Part shown: positions 4,141 to 41,267 of the stretch, in pieces
Layout: the number at the start of each line of letters is the position of its first letter
Position numbering within the stretch: position 1 is the first letter of the stretch
DNA from: Chthonomonadaceae bacterium
GTDB taxonomy: Bacteria; Armatimonadota; Chthonomonadetes; Chthonomonadales; Chthonomonadaceae
Direction of reading: 5' to 3'
Assembly (NCBI GenBank): GCA_027459665.1
Contig: DAIDHN010000025.1
Coordinates: forward strand, 1-57,407
DNA length: 57,407 nucleotides
Notes under the pieces: model-generated
Database searches by the model: none
What the model saw: only the letters and a program-made list of their open reading frames with translations
What the model was told of the DNA's origin: nothing
Translations under genes and position numbers: made by a program

Positions 4141-5604
4141 ATGGCAGGTTCTTACGTTGGGCTGGATATTGGCTCCAACCTCATCAAAGTGCTGGAAGCG
4201 CGCGGCGGCAACGGCCGGTTGGAAGTCACCGCCCTGGGTGTGGAAAACACACCGCGGGAAGCCTTTGACAACGGAGTGATTCTGGATGCGAAACTGCTTG
4301 GCCAAACTGTGAAGCAGCTGATGAAAAAAGCAGGGATAAGCAGCAGCCAGACGGTGAGCGCTGCCGCCAGCACGGCCTCTGTGGTAGTGCGAGTGGTGGA
4401 TATGCCTCCCGTAAATGATAGTGAACTGGCAGAGCAGATTCGCTGGGAAACAGAACGACAAGTGCCATTTCCGATGTCGGACGTGGTGATGGACTATCAG
4501 AAAATTGAGCGCCCCGAAGGGGATGGAGGCGGACAAAATATCGAAGTGCTTCTGGCTGTAGCTCAGCAGGAGTTTATCGATCAGCATGTGGAAGTGTTGC
4601 AGGCCGCCGGACTCAAGCCCAAGTACATCGATGTAGTTCCGCTTGCTGCAGGGCGCGCCCTGCTGGATATTGGCCCTGAATCATCGCAGCCCGCTGGTCA
4701 TACCGTGGTGGTGGTGAATATCGGAGCCGCCAGCACAGAAATAGGAATTTTTAGAGACAAGCTGATTGCCTATCCGCGCAGCGTAGCGATGGGGGGCGAA
4801 AATATGACCCGCGCCATCGCAGATGCCATGCAGGTAGATATGGAAACCGCGGAAAAGTACAAGTGCGATCTGGGCGAAGTAATGTTTGACCAGGCCGCAA
4901 TGCACACCAGCGGCGATCAGGCTGGATTTGCCGATTTTAGCAGCGGCGGGTTCATGGATTTTGGCAGCTCGCCTTCCGGTCCGACATCACCTTCGGGATC
5001 AACCTCGCCCTCTGGCCCAATGTCTGGCCCAATGGGAACGCCCTCAGGCAGAATGCCATTCGATTTCTCCAACCCAACACCCCCAGGCTCCGCTGAAACG
5101 CCCGAAACGCCGCCTGCAACGCCTTTCGACTTTTCCGCAGGGGGCAGTCAGGAGACTCCACCGGCAGATACACAGGAGGCCGCTCTTCCTGCCCACTCTG
5201 AAGGCGCACAAAACCTGCCAGTGCATGTTCCCCAGCCTGCCGATGCCCAGAATGAACAGTTGCGAGTTCAGGTGTTCAATGCAATCGCACCCATGGTCTC
5301 TGAGCTGCTGCAGGAAATTCGCCGCTCTGTGGAATACTACCGATCTCGTATTGGAGATGCTCCTGTGCATGAGATGCTTCTGATAGGGGGCGGCTCAAAA
5401 TTGAAGCGCCTCGACGAATTCATACAGGCTGAAATGGGCATCCCCACCCGCATCGCCAACCCATTGCAGAATGTGCAGGTTAGCTCAAAAAACTATTCTC
5501 ACGATTACCTGATGGAAATTGCTCCCCTTTTTCCGGTGAGCCTGGGGCTGGCAGCCTACGACCTGATTGGCGCACCTGCCGCCGCACGCAAACGCAAAAA
5601 ATAG
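4141..5604 (+). CDS. pilM: Type IV pilus assembly protein PilM
   Basis: Actin-like cytoplasmic ATPase of the type IV pilus alignment complex, which binds the N-terminus of PilN. The N-terminal phosphate-1 motif is GLDIGSNLIKVLE. The second phosphate region is VVVVNIGAASTEIGIF, and the C-terminal adenosine region contains LLIGGGSKLKRL. Family members are about 350 residues; this one has 487. The excess is a Pro/Ser/Gly-rich insertion at roughly residues 260-370 (repeats such as SPSGPTSPSG). It lies in the second half of the ATPase fold, before the helix starting near VQVFNAIAPMVSELL. The start at 4141 is preceded by GAGGT. First gene of the operon behind the promoter at 3956; pilN follows 40 bp later. 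Confidence 0.93.
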   Translation: MAGSYVGLDIGSNLIKVLEARGGNGRLEVTALGVENTPREAFDNGVILDAKLLGQTVKQLMKKAGISSSQTVSAAASTASVVVRVVDMPPVNDSELAEQIRWETERQVPFPMSDVVMDYQKIERPEGDGGGQNIEVLLAVAQQEFIDQHVEVLQAAGLKPKYIDVVPLAAGRALLDIGPESSQPAGHTVVVVNIGAASTEIGIFRDKLIAYPRSVAMGGENMTRAIADAMQVDMETAEKYKCDLGEVMFDQAAMHTSGDQAGFADFSSGGFMDFGSSPSGPTSPSGSTSPSGPMSGPMGTPSGRMPFDFSNPTPPGSAETPETPPATPFDFSAGGSQETPPADTQEAALPAHSEGAQNLPVHVPQPADAQNEQLRVQVFNAIAPMVSELLQEIRRSVEYYRSRIGDAPVHEMLLIGGGSKLKRLDEFIQAEMGIPTRIANPLQNVQVSSKNYSHDYLMEIAPLFPVSLGLAAYDLIGAPAAARKRKK

Positions 5605-5644
5605 TTCACACCCAGAGCACCTTGCTCTGCAGGAGAGAAATCCG

Positions 5645-6598
5645 ATGCTTCGCATCAACCTGTTACCGCAACACATCAATGTTGGAAAAATAAAACTGAT
5701 GCACATGGCGCTCGCCGCTGTGCTTTTCTCAGTGCTGCTGATTGGGCTTCTGTTCTGGGGCTTCACGGCGCAGGGAATGCTGGCTGTCGCAAAACAGAGG
5801 CTGGACACCGCAAACCAGTACCAGCAGCAGTATACTGCCATAGACACGCAGATTGGCGACGTGAAGACAAAAGTTTCGAAGATCAAGGCAAGGCAGGATT
5901 TTGTTGCTTCAGCACAATCAAACAATACTGCCTGGCCGCAGGCTATTGCTGCAGTAGGCGCTTCTGTACCGCCCTTTATTCTTCTGAACAGCCTGCAGTT
6001 TGCCCAGGCCGATCCTCATGAAGTGAACCTGACAGGCTTTTCTCAGAGCGAAATGAACCTCGCCCGCTGGTGGCTGCAGCTGCGCAACGATACTTCCCGC
6101 TACACCAATGCTGTTATCAGCCTGCCTTCCCACCCATACTCGCCCGGAGGCGGTAATACTGCCGCTGCAGGCGGAGGGTTCGGAGGCATGATGGGCGGCT
6201 ACGGCAGGCCCGGTTTTGGCGGAGGGGGCAAAGGGCGCTTTGGTGCTATGGGGCCGCCTTCTATGGGAGGGCCGGGAGGCTATCCTGGCATGCCGGGTAT
6301 GGCCGGAGGATTTGGCGGAGGCGGGTTTGGGGCCAGAAACAGCAATACCGCTTCCGCTACACCCGACCAGGTAGCAGGTAAAACAGGCTTCGATTTTACA
6401 GCGACACTCATGCTGACAGACAAGCTTGCACCGCCAGCCGTGGCGCCAACCTGGCCGGCAGCATCTGCCTCCGGGGGAGCCGGGAGCGGATTTGCAGGCA
6501 TGGGCGGAATGGGGGGCGGTATGGGGGTGCCCCCCGGAATGCCGCCGGGAGCCATGGGCGGAATGCCCTCTACCATGGGTGCAAAGGGAGGAGACTAG
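5645..6598 (+). CDS. pilN: Type IV pilus assembly protein PilN
   Basis: A 317-residue inner-membrane protein. The start at 5645 is preceded by AGGAGAG. It begins MLRINLLPQ, the conserved PilN motif that docks into PilM. One transmembrane helix follows at about residues 20-45, then a coiled-coil-like stretch (QRLDTANQYQQQYTAIDTQI) and a small periplasmic ferredoxin-like region. The standard PilN is about 180-200 residues. Here the second half is expanded by Gly/Met/Pro-rich stretches (GGFGGMMGGYGRPGFGGGG and others) on both sides of a short conserved-looking strand, and ends in a GMGG-rich tail. Assigned from the N-terminal motif and operon position. Confidence 0.88.
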   Translation: MLRINLLPQHINVGKIKLMHMALAAVLFSVLLIGLLFWGFTAQGMLAVAKQRLDTANQYQQQYTAIDTQIGDVKTKVSKIKARQDFVASAQSNNTAWPQAIAAVGASVPPFILLNSLQFAQADPHEVNLTGFSQSEMNLARWWLQLRNDTSRYTNAVISLPSHPYSPGGGNTAAAGGGFGGMMGGYGRPGFGGGGKGRFGAMGPPSMGGPGGYPGMPGMAGGFGGGGFGARNSNTASATPDQVAGKTGFDFTATLMLTDKLAPPAVAPTWPAASASGGAGSGFAGMGGMGGGMGVPPGMPPGAMGGMPSTMGAKGGD

Positions 6599-6602
6599 CG
6601 TT

Positions 6603-7490
6603 ATGCTGAAAAAAATACCCTTGTGGGGAATCTGGGCTACCTTTGGCCTTGTATCGCTGATTGTTTCGCTTATCCTGATCTTTGCATGGGTAAAGCCAAC
6701 AATGGACAACGCAAGCGACACAAACAGCAGCGCTGCCGGCGTAGAACAGCAGGGAGGTACAGACACTGCAGTGATGCAGCATAAAACCGATCTGAAAAAC
6801 GCCGAGAAATCTGCAGAGGCAGCACGGCAAAACTGGGCAGTGAGTTCTGCAAGATACATGCCGCCGCTCCCCTTCAATTCGCACGATACCAACGCCGATC
6901 TGATCAATATCTACGAATTTCGCAATGTGTATGGCAAAGCGGGCTTTAAGGACATACCCACGGTGTGGGGCACCTGGATTACCAACTGGTACGATGCACA
7001 GCACAAAGAAGGCGTAGACCGTGCGGAAGGTACAGAGTTTCCTATCCCTGCCTTTCCTTCCGACCCCAACTATATCAGCACTGTGAAGTATCTGGCCTTC
7101 CCCAGCGATAATTCTCCCTGGACGGTTACAGTGAACTGTGCAAACTTTCGGGATGCAGTGGATCATCTGGAGCGATTCAATAAAATGACAGGACACGGTA
7201 TTCCTGTTATCAGCCATGTCTCTCTCAGCGGACACAGCCCGAACCTGCAGATGACCTATACCCTTCAGGTTTATGTGCTTCCTTCTCCTGGTCTCAAGCC
7301 GCCCCCGCCAGACAGCCGTCTGAGCGTAGGAACTGGCGGTGGAGGGGGTGCCATGGGTATGCCTGGCGGTATGGGTATGTACGGGGCGATGGGGCCGGGC
7401 GCTATGGGACCTCCAAGTATGATGGGTGGAGGCGGTCCGCGGGGGAAAGCTCCGCATGCCGGCGGCGGCGGAATGGGCGCTGCAAAATAA
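6603..7490 (+). CDS. pilO: PilO-like type IV pilus assembly protein
   Basis: A 295-residue protein with an N-terminal membrane helix (LWGIWATFGLVSLIVSLILI) and a periplasmic part. The predicted coiled-coil region (about residues 55-80) and the strand/helix pattern around NCANFRDAVDHLERFNKM fit PilO, the partner of PilN in the alignment complex. Sequence conservation is weak, so the name rests on position between pilN and a PilP-like lipoprotein and on topology. GGAGGAGA precedes the start at 6603, only 4 bp after the pilN stop. The C-terminal 50 residues or so are a Gly/Met/Pro-rich tail (for example GGAMGMPGGMGMYGAMG), foreign to typical PilO. Confidence 0.75.
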   Translation: MLKKIPLWGIWATFGLVSLIVSLILIFAWVKPTMDNASDTNSSAAGVEQQGGTDTAVMQHKTDLKNAEKSAEAARQNWAVSSARYMPPLPFNSHDTNADLINIYEFRNVYGKAGFKDIPTVWGTWITNWYDAQHKEGVDRAEGTEFPIPAFPSDPNYISTVKYLAFPSDNSPWTVTVNCANFRDAVDHLERFNKMTGHGIPVISHVSLSGHSPNLQMTYTLQVYVLPSPGLKPPPPDSRLSVGTGGGGGAMGMPGGMGMYGAMGPGAMGPPSMMGGGGPRGKAPHAGGGGMGAAK

Positions 7491-7512
7491 GAGCAGGGAG
7501 TTTTCTGAAACG

Positions 7513-8223
7513 ATGAAATACACAAACAGGGTGCGCATACAAAAAATATCGGCTCTTGCCTTGGCTTCCCTGGTGATTGCAGGGCTTGCAGGCTGCGGCG
7601 GAAACAGCGACAACAGCTCTTCCTCTTCCTCCAGCACCTCTTCCTCAAATGCCATGGGGCCAGGTTCCAGCATGGCTATGGGGCCGTCTATGGCAGGCTT
7701 TGGGGCCGGGGGCGGCACATCGGCCTCGGCAGGGGCTAGTGCTGGAACTCCTTCCAAGGTGACCCCCGAAAACCTTCATTACACCCAGGACCCATTTTAC
7801 GTAAGCTGGAAGCGAAAACCGCTGCCGCCTGACCCGTTTGAGGAAGTGCAGCCTCTGCAAGTAGCCAGCACCAATGCAGCAGCTCCACCTGCCAAGCCCA
7901 TCACAGTGAGACAAGTTCCCGATCGGCGCGTGGCAGGCATACTGAGCGGCCAGGGAGTATATGCTATTCTTGAACAAAATGGCACCAGTGAAATAGTAAA
8001 GCCCGGTGGCGTTACATCCGATGGCTATACAGTAGTGGATATTTCTCCTACTGGGGTGAAATTGCGAAAACGGGAAGGTAACATTATCCTTACCCAAAAC
8101 GTACCACTCACAGATCAGCAGACCTCCACCCAGGCAGCTGGTTTTGCACCCGGAGGTTTTGGCCCCGGTGCAGCAGCAGGGGGTGGAGTGACCGGTGGAA
8201 ACGGCGCCAACGGCGCACAGTAA
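7513..8223 (+). CDS. pilP: PilP-like pilus assembly lipoprotein
   Basis: A 236-residue lipoprotein. The lipobox LAGC is at about residues 25-28 after a hydrophobic signal, followed by a Ser-rich linker (DNSSSSSSSTSSS). The core includes KVTPENLHYTQDPFYVSW, VRQVPDRRVAGILSGQGVYA, then AILEQNGTSEIVKPG and YTVVDISPTGVKLRKREG. This is the small beta-barrel pattern of PilP, the lipoprotein that links PilN/PilO to the secretin PilQ. It is longer than usual and has Gly/Ala/Met-rich segments before and after the core. The start at 7513 follows a GAGCAGGGAG ribosome site. Confidence 0.75.
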   Translation: MKYTNRVRIQKISALALASLVIAGLAGCGGNSDNSSSSSSSTSSSNAMGPGSSMAMGPSMAGFGAGGGTSASAGASAGTPSKVTPENLHYTQDPFYVSWKRKPLPPDPFEEVQPLQVASTNAAAPPAKPITVRQVPDRRVAGILSGQGVYAILEQNGTSEIVKPGGVTSDGYTVVDISPTGVKLRKREGNIILTQNVPLTDQQTSTQAAGFAPGGFGPGAAAGGGVTGGNGANGAQ

Positions 8224-8276
8224 CAGACATCTACTGCAGCGCAAATCTGCAGACCTTGCTTTGAGAGGAGTTATAA

Positions 8277-9047
8277 ATGGCAGCCAAATTCAAAGCCCTC
8301 ACTGGGGCAGCCATAGGGCTTATAGCCCTGGGGATTGTCGCACTGCCCAGTTCGGCACGCGCACAGGATACCAGTTCCCAGGGGGGGAGCGGACTGACTG
8401 ACAATGGCAATGGCCCTACAATCAGTCACCTCGATCTGGAAAACGTAGACCTCTACACCGCTTTCACATTGCTGTTTACACAGGCAAAAGTGAACTATAC
8501 CCTCGATCCCAGTCTGCGTAATTACAGGGTATCTATACATCTGCGAAACGCAGAACCCTTCCGGCTTGTGCTAGAAGCTCTTCTGGCACGCGCCACAGCA
8601 GAAGGTTTGCCTCTCACCTATACAGTGCAGGATGGCTTCTACAGCATTGTGCCAAAGATTGAGACGACAGATACTTCTACTTCCACAACCAACAACAGTT
8701 CCGAACCTACCCCTCCTTCCTGGACGAAACCCTATCACTTCACAGTAGGTTCGTTCAACTTCAATGCTGAGGCGGTAACGCTTATGCTTGGCGGAAAACT
8801 GCTCAACCCCATACGTCTTCTTCAAAGCCAAAGCGGCACGAGTACCGGCGGCTTTGGCATGGGCGGTATGGGCGGCGGTATGGGTGGTATGATGGGCGGC
8901 GGCATGGGTGGCATGGGCGGCGGCATGGGTGGTATGATGGGCGGCGGCATGGGTGGCATGGGTGGCGGCATGATGGGCGGGGGTATGATGGGCGGCGGCA
9001 TGGGCGGCGGCATGGGCGGCGGCGGTGGTTTTGGCGGAATCGGTTAA
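8277..9047 (+). CDS. STN-domain protein with Met/Gly-rich tail
   Basis: A 256-residue exported protein (signal peptide through PSSARAQ). Residues about 45-120 are a secretin-and-TonB N-terminal (STN-like) domain: SHLDLENVDLYTAFTLLFT, then NYRVSIHLRNAEPFRLVLEA and TYTVQDGFYSIV. No secretin pore domain follows. Instead the last 60 residues or so consist almost only of Gly and Met in short GGM/GGGM units. A GAGGAG ribosome site precedes the start. It sits between pilP and pilQ and may be a periplasmic accessory of the secretin or an N-domain split from it. The function of the Met/Gly tail is unknown. Confidence 0.75.
   Translation: MAAKFKALTGAAIGLIALGIVALPSSARAQDTSSQGGSGLTDNGNGPTISHLDLENVDLYTAFTLLFTQAKVNYTLDPSLRNYRVSIHLRNAEPFRLVLEALLARATAEGLPLTYTVQDGFYSIVPKIETTDTSTSTTNNSSEPTPPSWTKPYHFTVGSFNFNAEAVTLMLGGKLLNPIRLLQSQSGTSTGGFGMGGMGGGMGGMMGGGMGGMGGGMGGMMGGGMGGMGGGMMGGGMMGGGMGGGMGGGGGFGGIG
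8855..9030 (+). repeat. 45-bp imperfect tandem repeat in the coding region (Gly/Met tract)
   Basis: The 3' end of the STN-domain gene is an in-frame tandem array. The unit beginning GGTATGATGGGCGGCGGCAT at 8886 recurs at 8931, a period of 45 bp (15 codons). Shorter GGCGGCATG units lie around it. Such arrays can change length by replication slippage. Confidence 0.75.
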
Positions 9048-9071
9048 GACTGACTGCATTTTCATCACCCT

Positions 9072-9101
9072 GTGCAGAGCCGGCAATGAGCGGCTCTGCA
9101 C
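9072..9101 (+). promoter_or_regulatory. Strong hairpin between the STN-domain gene and pilQ
   Basis: A perfect 11-bp inverted repeat, GTGCAGAGCCG (9072-9082) with CGGCTCTGCAC (9091-9101), has an 8-base loop and no T-run after it. It lies in the 181-bp gap before pilQ, the widest in this operon. It may stabilise or process the mRNA and so set the ratio of secretin to upstream proteins. Nothing else is seen in the gap. Confidence 0.5.
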
Positions 9102-9228
9102 CAGCCTCGGTAAAAAACCTGCATGATCCCGCTGGTATCTGAACTTCTGTTTTCTTTTATCGGAATTCTGCAAATACTTACTCAACCCGCGCAGCGATCC
9201 AGCTGACGCGTCAAGGGGGACAATTGGT

Positions 9229-11124
9229 ATGGGCTTGAAATGGCAAGGCGGTCGTGCCTCATACGCTCTTTCGGCAGTGGCGCTGAGCGCCGCGCTGCTT
9301 GCAGGAGGCAGTCATGCAGCACGCGCCGAAGGTGACTCACAAAATTCTGGCGCCGGTCAGCAAGGGCTGCCGGCAGGAAGCGCGGTTCAAACTCTCAATA
9401 GACTGACTCTGATGAATGCTGACCTCACCACAGCAGTGAATTTGATTGAGCAGAAAACAGGCATACAGGTTGTAATACTGCCGCCCGATGCAGATCAGCC
9501 TTATGGCAAGGTGAATGTTTCGCTGCGCAACAGAACCATCAGCCAGTCGCTTCGCGAAGTTGCTGCTTCGGCAGATGCTGAAATGTGGCAGCGCGACGGC
9601 GTGTACTACATTGGCCCCAAAGGGAGTGCACCCAGAAAACAGGAAGCGCCTCAGCCTTTGCTGCCGGTGAGCCTGCCTGTTCCACAAACTCCCAATTGGC
9701 ATGTGGCAAAAATTCGTATCAACTATATGCCTGCGCACCGCATGCTTACTCTCATGGGAATTACCAGACATCTTTCTATGGAAGACTGGATGAGGGAAGA
9801 TTCACTGAAGGCTGTGCAAGAGTCGATGACAGGCAGTATTGCACCGCAGATGAATCGCCCCCCGGTTTTTCTTACAGCAAACGGTGGGGCGCTTCAGTAT
9901 GCGCCTTCAGCACCTTCCGCAGGTTATGCAAACAATTCTCCTACGTTTCAGCAGGTAGCGCCGCAGTCGTCATCAGCCTCTACGGGCACCGCTGCTACTG
10001 CAAGTGATGCTGTACCGCTGCTGCAGGCCGCACACCGTGATGCTGCCGGCCTCGATTCTTTTGGCAGAGGCCAGGGCTTTGGCAGACCGGGCGGCGGCGG
10101 CGGTGGTTTCGGCGGCGGTGGTGGTTTTGGAGGCGGTGGTGGTTTTGGAGGCCAGGGTGCCGGCGGAGCCGGTGCGCCGGGTGCTGGAGGCGCAGGCGGG
10201 GTCGGCGGGGCACAAAATGCAACTGCGGCAGGTTTACTGCCGCCGGGCATCAACCCGGGCGATGTTTCTGCGCTCGATTCTGATGGCAGTCTGTTGCTGC
10301 GCTATACCACTCCGCAAGAGCTGGAGCAATTCAAGCAGCTTGTAAAACTGCTTGATGTGAAGCCGAAGCAGATAATGATCAAGGCTCAGTTTGTAACGGT
10401 TTCATCCAACAAGGTGAACTCGTTTGGTATTACCTGGAACTTCAGCAGAGTGAACCTGGTGGCAGCAGCCAATGCAGGGTTCAGCCCCACAAATACAGCG
10501 TTTATACAGTATGCCGCTGGGAACCTGCAAACACAGCTGAGCTGGATTCTCACTACAGGCAACGGCAAGCTGATTACCTCGCCTGAGGCTGTTACAACAA
10601 ACGGCGTGCCGGCAATCTTTGTAAACCAGACTCTTGAACCGGTGCTTATTCAGCAGCCTATTGTTGGTATCAATGGAAACGTGTTTGTTTCTACAACAAT
10701 CACACTCTTCCCTGTACTTACCAACCTGGCGATCACGCCCTACATCAACGGCGACGGCTCGCTCTATCTTACTGGGCAGCTTGTTACGCAGGCCATTGCA
10801 GGCAACGTAACTAACCCGGCTGGCGGCAGCATCCCGATTATATCCGGGCAGACTGCCTTTGTAAACCGAATTGTGAATGATGGGGATACGCTGGTGGTAA
10901 ACGGCCTTACCTCTACACAAGATTCGGTGTCTGAAAACAAGGTGCCCCTGCTGGGAGACCTGCCGCTGATCGGAACACTGTTCCGCTCTCGCAACGTCAC
11001 AACCGCCAGTTCCAACCTGCTGGTGTTTATCACTGCACAGGTACTGCCAGACAAGCCGGCGCTTGGCGAGGCCGGCGGCGGCACCCAGGCTGCAGGCAGT
11101 TCGTCGGGCGGCCTCCTTCCCTAA
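9229..11124 (+). CDS. pilQ: Type IV pilus secretin PilQ
   Basis: A 631-residue outer-membrane secretin. The signal peptide spans about residues 1-35 (ending SHAARAE). An STN domain follows (RLTLMNADLTTAVNLIEQKT), then an N-domain region and a long Gly-rich linker at about residues 283-327 (GGFGGGGGFGGGG type). From about residue 365 there is an N1/secretin module (LVKLLDVKPKQIMIKAQFVT). The pore domain ends with the secretin signature VPLLGDLPLIGTLFRSR and SNLLVFITAQVL. AAGGGGG precedes the ATG. Last gene of the pilus operon, followed by an intrinsic terminator. No pilB, pilC or pilT is in the window. Confidence 0.92.
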   Translation: MGLKWQGGRASYALSAVALSAALLAGGSHAARAEGDSQNSGAGQQGLPAGSAVQTLNRLTLMNADLTTAVNLIEQKTGIQVVILPPDADQPYGKVNVSLRNRTISQSLREVAASADAEMWQRDGVYYIGPKGSAPRKQEAPQPLLPVSLPVPQTPNWHVAKIRINYMPAHRMLTLMGITRHLSMEDWMREDSLKAVQESMTGSIAPQMNRPPVFLTANGGALQYAPSAPSAGYANNSPTFQQVAPQSSSASTGTAATASDAVPLLQAAHRDAAGLDSFGRGQGFGRPGGGGGGFGGGGGFGGGGGFGGQGAGGAGAPGAGGAGGVGGAQNATAAGLLPPGINPGDVSALDSDGSLLLRYTTPQELEQFKQLVKLLDVKPKQIMIKAQFVTVSSNKVNSFGITWNFSRVNLVAAANAGFSPTNTAFIQYAAGNLQTQLSWILTTGNGKLITSPEAVTTNGVPAIFVNQTLEPVLIQQPIVGINGNVFVSTTITLFPVLTNLAITPYINGDGSLYLTGQLVTQAIAGNVTNPAGGSIPIISGQTAFVNRIVNDGDTLVVNGLTSTQDSVSENKVPLLGDLPLIGTLFRSRNVTTASSNLLVFITAQVLPDKPALGEAGGGTQAAGSSSGGLLP

Positions 11125-40373: not shown

Positions 40374-41267
40374 ATGAAAACACATGGCAGGGCATTTACG
40401 CTCATTGAACTTCTGGTAGTTATTGCCATAATTGCTATTCTGGCAGCGATTCTCTTTCCTGTTTTCGCTCAGGCTAGGGAAAAAGCACGGCAAGCAACCT
40501 GTCTCTCTAACCTAGACCAGATCGGTCTTGCACAAATGATGTACGTTCAGGATTACGACGAACAGTTTCCGACTTCCTGGGCTAAGGGATTTCCCGGCGA
40601 CTTCAATTGGTACATTCAGCCATATCTTAAGAACTTTAATGTGCTGCTGTGCCCCAGCAAAACAGTGTCAACGGCTGCTGCGGCTGGGCCTTGCGGCAAC
40701 CCTAACGACTCGTATGGCACATGGTATCTTGCGCCGGGCGCCAGAGACAATCCTACCGGTGAAACTTACTTGTGGGGATACGGTTTTAACAATGGATACA
40801 ACTGGAATAATAACACGGGCCTTGTAAACTCCGAACCCAACAATATTAATCCGAATGCCATGGTGCCGATCTCGATTGGCGGCAAAACAGTGATGACGCA
40901 GGTACGGCCATCACTGCAGGTGGGAATATCTCAGGCAGCACTGGCAGCGCCTGCCATGATGTTTATGGAAGCCGATACGAATGAACCACCAACCAGCAGC
41001 ATTCAGTTAGATGCTCTTCGGCCACTCAACTTCCCTGGGTTTGTAGACTCGCCTTGTGAAATGGTTGTACGAGCAAATTCCCCGCGTCATCTGGGCGGAA
41101 ATACTTTCCTCTTTGCCGATGGTCACGTAAAATGGCTGCATTTCAACAGCACAGTAACGGGACCAGGGGCGGGAGGTGAGCCTGCGGTTGTGCCAGATCC
41201 GTGTGAGTACATACGAGACTACGATGGGTCCAACGATCCAGATAACTGCAAACAGCTGTTCAATTAA
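40374..41267 (+). CDS. DUF1559/H-X9-DG-type prepilin-like protein
   Basis: A 297-residue pseudopilin. The type III signal is [20 protein letters not shown], with Gly/Ala-Phe cleavage and the conserved Glu five residues after, which makes it a prepilin-peptidase substrate. [20 protein letters not shown] and [14 protein letters not shown] follow. The C-terminal H-x9-DG motif is [18 protein letters not shown]. Such proteins occur in large families in Armatimonadota and Planctomycetes, and their role in pili or secretion is largely unknown. It is about 29 kb from the pil operon, which may assemble it. Confidence 0.9.

Follow-up and report, generated by a model that had tools for sequence, protein, structure and literature searches.

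Predicted disordered, glycine-rich tracts at conserved positions in the periplasmic proteins of the type IVa pilus alignment complex of Armatimonadota

Introduction

Trans-envelope machines are usually explained through their folded parts. In the alignment complex of type IVa pili (T4aP), PilM is bound by the N-terminal NLLP peptide of PilN.

Thermus PilW has a Gly/Pro-rich, extended and flexible linker in a periplasm of ~70 nm, and its truncation by 54 aa shifts the platform by ~7 nm toward PilQ (PMC13039148). In the phage secretin pIV, a disordered loop of the N3 domain, which comprises 65 residues as a whole, is directed into the pore (PMC8563730). The Gly/Met tails of GroEL, an extension of 24 residues, populate the polyproline II helix (PMC12571646).

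The locus described here comes from a Chthonomonadaceae bacterium (Armatimonadota; assembly GCA_027459665.1, contig DAIDHN010000025.1), of which a stretch of 57,407 nt, hereafter the window, was analysed. Positions 4141-11124 contain six ORFs encoding PilM, PilN, a PilO-like protein, a PilP-like protein, an STN-domain protein, and PilQ, and constitute the T4aP alignment-complex operon pilM-N-O-P-(STN)-Q. The ORFs and their tracts lie where an earlier, sequence-only reading had placed them. The gene order, the PilM fold, the NLLP motif of PilN, the N0/Secretin_N/secretin arrangement of PilQ, and, tentatively, the HR-type domain of PilP are shared with the PilMNOPQ systems of Pseudomonas, Myxococcus, and Thermus. 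In comparison with these, the Armatimonadota proteins PilN, PilO, and PilP have additional Gly-rich tails, PilQ a Gly-rich insert, and PilM an insert with motifs, and pilP is separated from pilQ by an extra gene for a stand-alone N0 (STN) protein.

Like the proteins here, Thermus PilW brings a flexible, Gly/Pro-rich segment into the periplasmic part of a T4P machine. PilW, however, is a single protein described as a linker, and the segments here are distributed over five proteins, mostly as free tails. GroEL similarly has a Gly/Met tail on the subunit of a ring machine. However, it is a chaperonin without homology to the proteins described here, its tail is short compared to the 73 aa of the periplasmic STN tail, and Met is replaceable in the latter. 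The pIV loop resembles the PilQ insert in being disordered and in belonging to the N domain adjoining the secretin domain, the identity of the two loops being assumed, but it is far shorter than the ~160 residues in PilQ, which include a 60-aa Gly-rich core.

The operon and its proteins

All operon features given below are on the + strand. PilM (4141..5604; 487 aa) is an actin-like cytoplasmic protein. It matches TIGR01175 (E=8e-66, 222 bits, cutoff 133) and T. thermophilus PilM (2ych, E=1.7e-46), from which its actin-like fold is recognized, and the AF2 model of its core has pLDDT values mostly >90. PilN (5645..6598) has the N-terminal NLLP motif of T4aP PilN proteins and is predicted to bind PilM. 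Its family profile matches M. xanthus PilN (3jc8) with E=2.9e-17, and [IV][DN]LLP is present in 57/73 PilN orthologs. PilQ (9229..11124) is a secretin by its matches to PF00263 (E=1e-26) and to the PilQ structure 6w6m (E=9e-59), and it matches TIGR02515 with E=8e-36 and 124 bits, under the strict cutoff of 284 bits.

The PilO-like protein (6603..7490) was assigned from its family profile, which matches 3jc8 PilO with E=8e-4 as it also matches unrelated coiled coils, from PF04350 in 2/24 family members, and from gene position. The PilP-like lipoprotein (7513..8223) has the lipobox LAGC and a putative HR-type domain, and its family profile has only three PDB matches (GspC HR 3oss, E=0.004; PilP 4av2 and 2ivw, E ~0.04; range 0.004-0.044). 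The assignments of PilO and PilP, which are based on weak profile matches and gene order, are tentative, and for PilP the lipobox fits as well. The M-N-O-P-Q order of the T4aP alignment complex is present as a whole, and is kept within the family and the order and through much of the phylum. Elsewhere in the window, positions 40374-41267 encode a pilin-like protein whose N-terminus has a prokaryotic methylation motif. Similar pilin-like proteins are found next to the T4P motor genes (contig 19, L149) and at other sites.

Gly-rich tracts in the window

PilN has an inner Gly/Met/Pro tract of 63 aa (6146..6334) and a C-terminal Gly/Met/Pro tail (6458..6571), and PilO has a C-terminal tail of the same kind (7326..7484). 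In PilP, an N-terminal Gly/Ala/Ser tract preceded by a Ser-rich run (7687..7746) is placed between the lipobox and the putative HR domain and would thus be a true linker, and a Gly/Ala tail is present at the C-terminus (8128..8214). The C-terminal tail of the STN protein (8826..9044; 73 aa) contains 18 Met, and its best 30-aa stretch is 100% Gly and Met. It is encoded by 3.5 imperfect tandem copies of a 45-bp repeat, and its AF2 pLDDT is <50.

The PilQ tract (10054..10233) is located within the Secretin_N domain, adjoining the secretin domain. It splits the Secretin_N match, and ~150 profile positions stand there against 13 residues in 6w6m. Described before as a Gly-only linker, it consists for the most part of Gly, with Phe, Ala, and Gln and without Met, and is an insert inside one domain. 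The maximum number of Gly in 30 residues is 7 in PilM, 17 in PilN, 14 in PilO, 12 in PilP, 22 in STN, and 22 in PilQ. The proposal that every protein of the operon has such a tract therefore applies to PilN, PilO, PilP, STN, and PilQ (at least 12 Gly in 30), but not to PilM, whose segment is of another kind.

The stand-alone N0 protein

The STN protein (8277..9047) consists of a signal peptide, a secretin N0 domain, the first strand-helix of the next N domain, and the Gly/Met tail, as delineated by AF2, Foldseek, and hhalign. Foldseek matches its AF2 model to LspD (7pmp, 1e-4), the N0 domain of GspD (4jtm, 4e-4), and the N0 domain of PilQ (4ar0, 7e-4), which identifies the N0 fold. PF07660 is found in 13/16 STN family members, and the window protein alone gives no match. 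The C-terminal secretin domain is absent, and the Gly tail is the end of the protein.

In hhalign, the STN profile aligns to the PilQ N-terminus with a probability of 99.1% and E=1e-18. The alignment covers N0 and the strand-helix with which the following N domain begins, and both proteins continue into a linker and a tract after the homologous part. By this sequence comparison, STN is a paralog of the N-terminal part of PilQ, encoded by a gene of its own and terminating in a tract. Partial duplication of the secretin gene would be the simplest history. Since STN stops where the PilQ tract starts, at homologous positions, the two tracts were probably not gained separately.

Conservation across Armatimonadota

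PilM is present in 40/41 related genomes. The comparison was extended by 78 further loci, including records named Armatimonadota and one labelled Actinomycetota, several of them from the same genomes. Within the scope of Armatimonadota, and with a conserved tract defined as at least 25 residues, the STN tail is found in 49/49 (counted among proteins of at least 200 aa), and the tracts of PilN in 62/73, PilO in 51/65, PilP in 39/58, and PilQ in 33/43. The relatives that the sequence-only reading had named as the place to look thus have the tracts, and at the same positions. The loci L172, L173, L194, and L209 keep the STN tail and lack tracts of PilN, PilO, PilP, or PilQ, which shows that not all tracts are needed.

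The composition of the tracts is ~40-60% Gly, with few charges (Asp+Glu 0.3-2%), Cys+His of ~0, and either Pro/Ala or hydrophobic residues that replace one another (Met or Phe/Tyr). The share of Met across relatives ranges from none to about one third of the tail. It is anticorrelated with Phe/Tyr/Trp in all five proteins (r -0.36 to -0.53), and Met-free tracts make up 17/49 in STN, 20/33 in PilQ, and 10/62 in PilN. Gly codons in the tracts are mixed (GGC 77, GGT 42, GGA 29, and GGG 22).

In close pairs, pN is 0.105 and pS 0.529 in the tracts (pN/pS 0.20), compared to 0.057 and 0.520 in the folded parts (pN/pS 0.11), values that come from overlapping, non-independent pairs and alignable columns only, with gapped positions uncounted. 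The ratio, though indicative only, points to purifying selection on the tracts. The tracts of the periplasmic proteins, predicted to be disordered, are kept at fixed positions phylum-wide, and such conserved placement suggests that disorder serves the machine and is more than noise.

Specificity within the genome

The genome sample covers 1.48 Mb (72 pieces, ~40%) of 3.67 Mb, with 1,105 genes called by a simple codon model. It purposely took in loci matching a GGMGG pattern, a choice that biases it against a claim of tract specificity. At least 12 Gly in 30 residues occur in 5/6 operon genes vs. 6/1,100 other sampled genes (Fisher p=2e-10). A genome-wide Gly/Met bias, which the same tracts in many unrelated proteins would have indicated, is thus rejected on this sample. 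The six other Gly-rich genes include, as judged by sequence, Obg-like, RNA-binding-like, and PQQ-repeat-like proteins, GspK of the type II secretion system (T2SS), and a secreted Gly/Met protein.

PilB, PilT, PilC, and PilD, encoded by the motor operon on contig 19, lack tracts and have a maximum of 7 Gly in 30 residues. In the T2SS operon of this genome, the secretin and the inner-membrane genes lack them as well (maximum 8), and GspK alone has a Gly-rich tract. The tracts therefore belong to the alignment subcomplex, and the view that they are a general trait of trans-envelope machines is mostly rejected.

Three loci elsewhere in the genome can be described individually. Contig 26 carries a separate, T2SS-like operon (L085:2519-15817) that includes a PilM-like protein. 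In its GspK, 155 residues are of low complexity, with much Gly/Ala/Pro/Ser, and the rest of the operon has at most 8 Gly in 30 residues. On contig 4 (L086:11715-13238), a probable secreted protein has a Gly/Met/Pro tract, GMGGYPGMPGGMGRPGMGG, closely like the pilus tails. The PQQ-repeat-like protein on contig 1 (L096:12712-14466) ends in the Gly-rich tail GGMPGGGGFGRPGVGGRGKGGGGG.

Matched tails of PilN and PilO

In 15/65 loci, the locus's own PilO tail is the closest to the PilN tail among all 65, where about one is expected. Composition-corrected z values >4 between PilN and PilO occur in 14/48 comparisons within a genome vs. 8/283 across genomes (p=5e-8). The own-genome likeness of PilN and PilP is weaker (p=6e-4), and the effect is absent between the STN and PilQ tracts. 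At the DNA level, the comparison of pilN and pilO being limited to the 3' ends of the genes, the two tails share 99/103 bases in L160 (G016) and 86/91 in L166 (G027), i.e., 94-96% identity. These near-identical sequences suggest recent copying or gene conversion in both genomes. A mobile tail module was considered as well and rejected, since the G016 tail probe has full-length matches only in pilN and pilO of that genome, plus one weak match. A literature search on low complexity in PilN and PilO found nothing.

The PilM insert

The Pro/Ser/Gly insertion of about 110 residues reported earlier for PilM is present and predicted to be disordered, but it bears motifs and is not of the same kind as the Gly tracts. 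As located by the AF2 model, the 2ych alignment, and relatives, it spans aa 254-365 (~112 aa; 4900..5235), between a helix ending near aa 244 and a long helix from aa 369. Residues 245-368 stand opposite 2ych chain residues 249-265, a stretch of ~16 residues in T. thermophilus PilM. The AF2 pLDDT of ~40 marks the insert as disordered. It is rich in Pro/Ser/Gly/Ala, and a low-complexity filter passes just 24 residues (4978-5049). Across relatives, the PilM inserts are acidic (Asp+Glu 18%), with almost no Lys, Trp, or Cys.

The insert carries the motif copies GFADF(S) (4924..4938), GFMDF(G) (4948..4962), MPFDF(S) (5053..5067), and TPFDF(S) (5119..5133). The third is the best conserved and appears as PSGRMPFDF in the family, and the elements PSGRMPFDFS and GF.DFS are common to the family's PilM inserts. 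These short linear FDF motifs (4924-5133) are conserved across the phylum. The motif F-D-[F/L]-[S/T/G], searched as [FMLIVW].?D[FL][STGN], gives 125 copies in 52/66 inserts, counts that include related sequences and thus overstate the number of independent cases, vs. a mean of 7 and a maximum of 15 in 200 within-insert shuffles. The AlphaFold model of PilM shows no docking of the motifs in cis. The insert looks like an array of predicted docking motifs, possibly for a cytoplasmic partner. A literature search on PilM with a short linear motif found nothing.

Discussion

The sequence-only reading proposed a parallel, independent gain of disordered segments in all six proteins. This part of it is not supported, because the STN and PilQ tracts are at paralogous positions, the PilN and PilO tails are concerted, and the PilM insert is different. 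The reading that we favour, tentatively and with slightly less than even confidence, is that tails with a weak affinity for one another hold the periplasmic complex together and PilM motifs dock a cytoplasmic partner. The periplasmic tails would be weak, multivalent, like-with-like tethers in which Gly forms the spacers and Met/Phe/Tyr the stickers. They would keep together the PilN/PilO/PilP cage, the extra N0 layer of STN, and the PilQ rings, and could act as an elastic sleeve around the pilus as the inter-membrane distance varies. The PilQ tract would probably project from the N ring beside the gate, and the partner of the PilM motifs may be the motor ATPase or a regulator. Weak multivalent association is favoured by the combination of Gly with replaceable hydrophobic residues, few charges, and matched PilN and PilO tails, even though gene conversion without function could also produce like-with-like tails. 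The condensate-like assembly suggested by the sequence-only reading stays a candidate, on grounds of composition.

Flexible spacers or length adapters for a wide or variable periplasm, without specific self-interaction, are rather unlikely as a full account. Thermus PilW is a precedent as a Gly/Pro-rich extended linker (PMC13039148), and the N-terminal tract of PilP, between lipobox and HR domain, may by analogy with PilW be a true spacer. However, a spacer role between domains is impossible for the tails of PilN, PilO, and STN, which are free C-termini, and the PilQ tract lies within a single domain, so that most tracts cannot bridge domains, and a pure spacer has no need for swapping of Met, Phe, and Tyr. 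For the width of the periplasm in the Armatimonadota group, no value was found. The same swapping bears on the suggestion that the Met-rich tails bind copper or another metal. The 18 Met in the window STN tail suit it, but ligands are not conserved, as seen from the Met-free tracts of STN, PilQ, and PilN, the replacement of Met by Phe/Tyr, and the near absence of Cys and His. Metal binding is therefore extremely unlikely.

An entropic plug or brush, in which PilQ loops and STN tails would fill the secretin vestibule and limit leakage in the manner of GroEL GGM tails and FG-type barriers, appears unlikely too. The disordered N3 loop directed into the pore of pIV (PMC8563730), the Gly/Met tails in the GroEL ring machine (PMC12571646), and the N0-type ring domain of STN are in line with it, but the tails of PilN, PilO, and PilP are left unexplained. 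Tolerated repeat expansion, in which GC-rich GGN repeats grow by slippage and gene conversion and are neutral in exposed loops and tails, would account for the tandem repeat in the STN tail and for the PilN and PilO tails copied between genes in some genomes. On the other hand, tract position and Gly content persist phylum-wide, the indicative pN/pS is 0.20 despite strongly diverged synonymous sites, Gly codons are mixed, and tracts are missing from almost all of the other genes sampled in the genome. Neutral slippage is disfavoured by this divergence, and the expansion account as a whole is very improbable.

The tether-and-docking reading can be extended to a bolder form, which we regard as doubtful: the PilN, PilO, and PilP tails, the STN ring, and the PilQ loop would make one elastic, self-associating, disordered periplasmic phase that encloses pilus assembly, with PilN and PilO matched via repeated copying and the PilM FDF array recruiting the motor.

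Across the whole phylum of Armatimonadota, a single machine has kept disorder at the same positions of five periplasmic proteins, and the stand-alone N0 protein and the separate PilM motif array add to this. It thus becomes a testable question whether the disordered tails hold, space, or gate the pilus machine.
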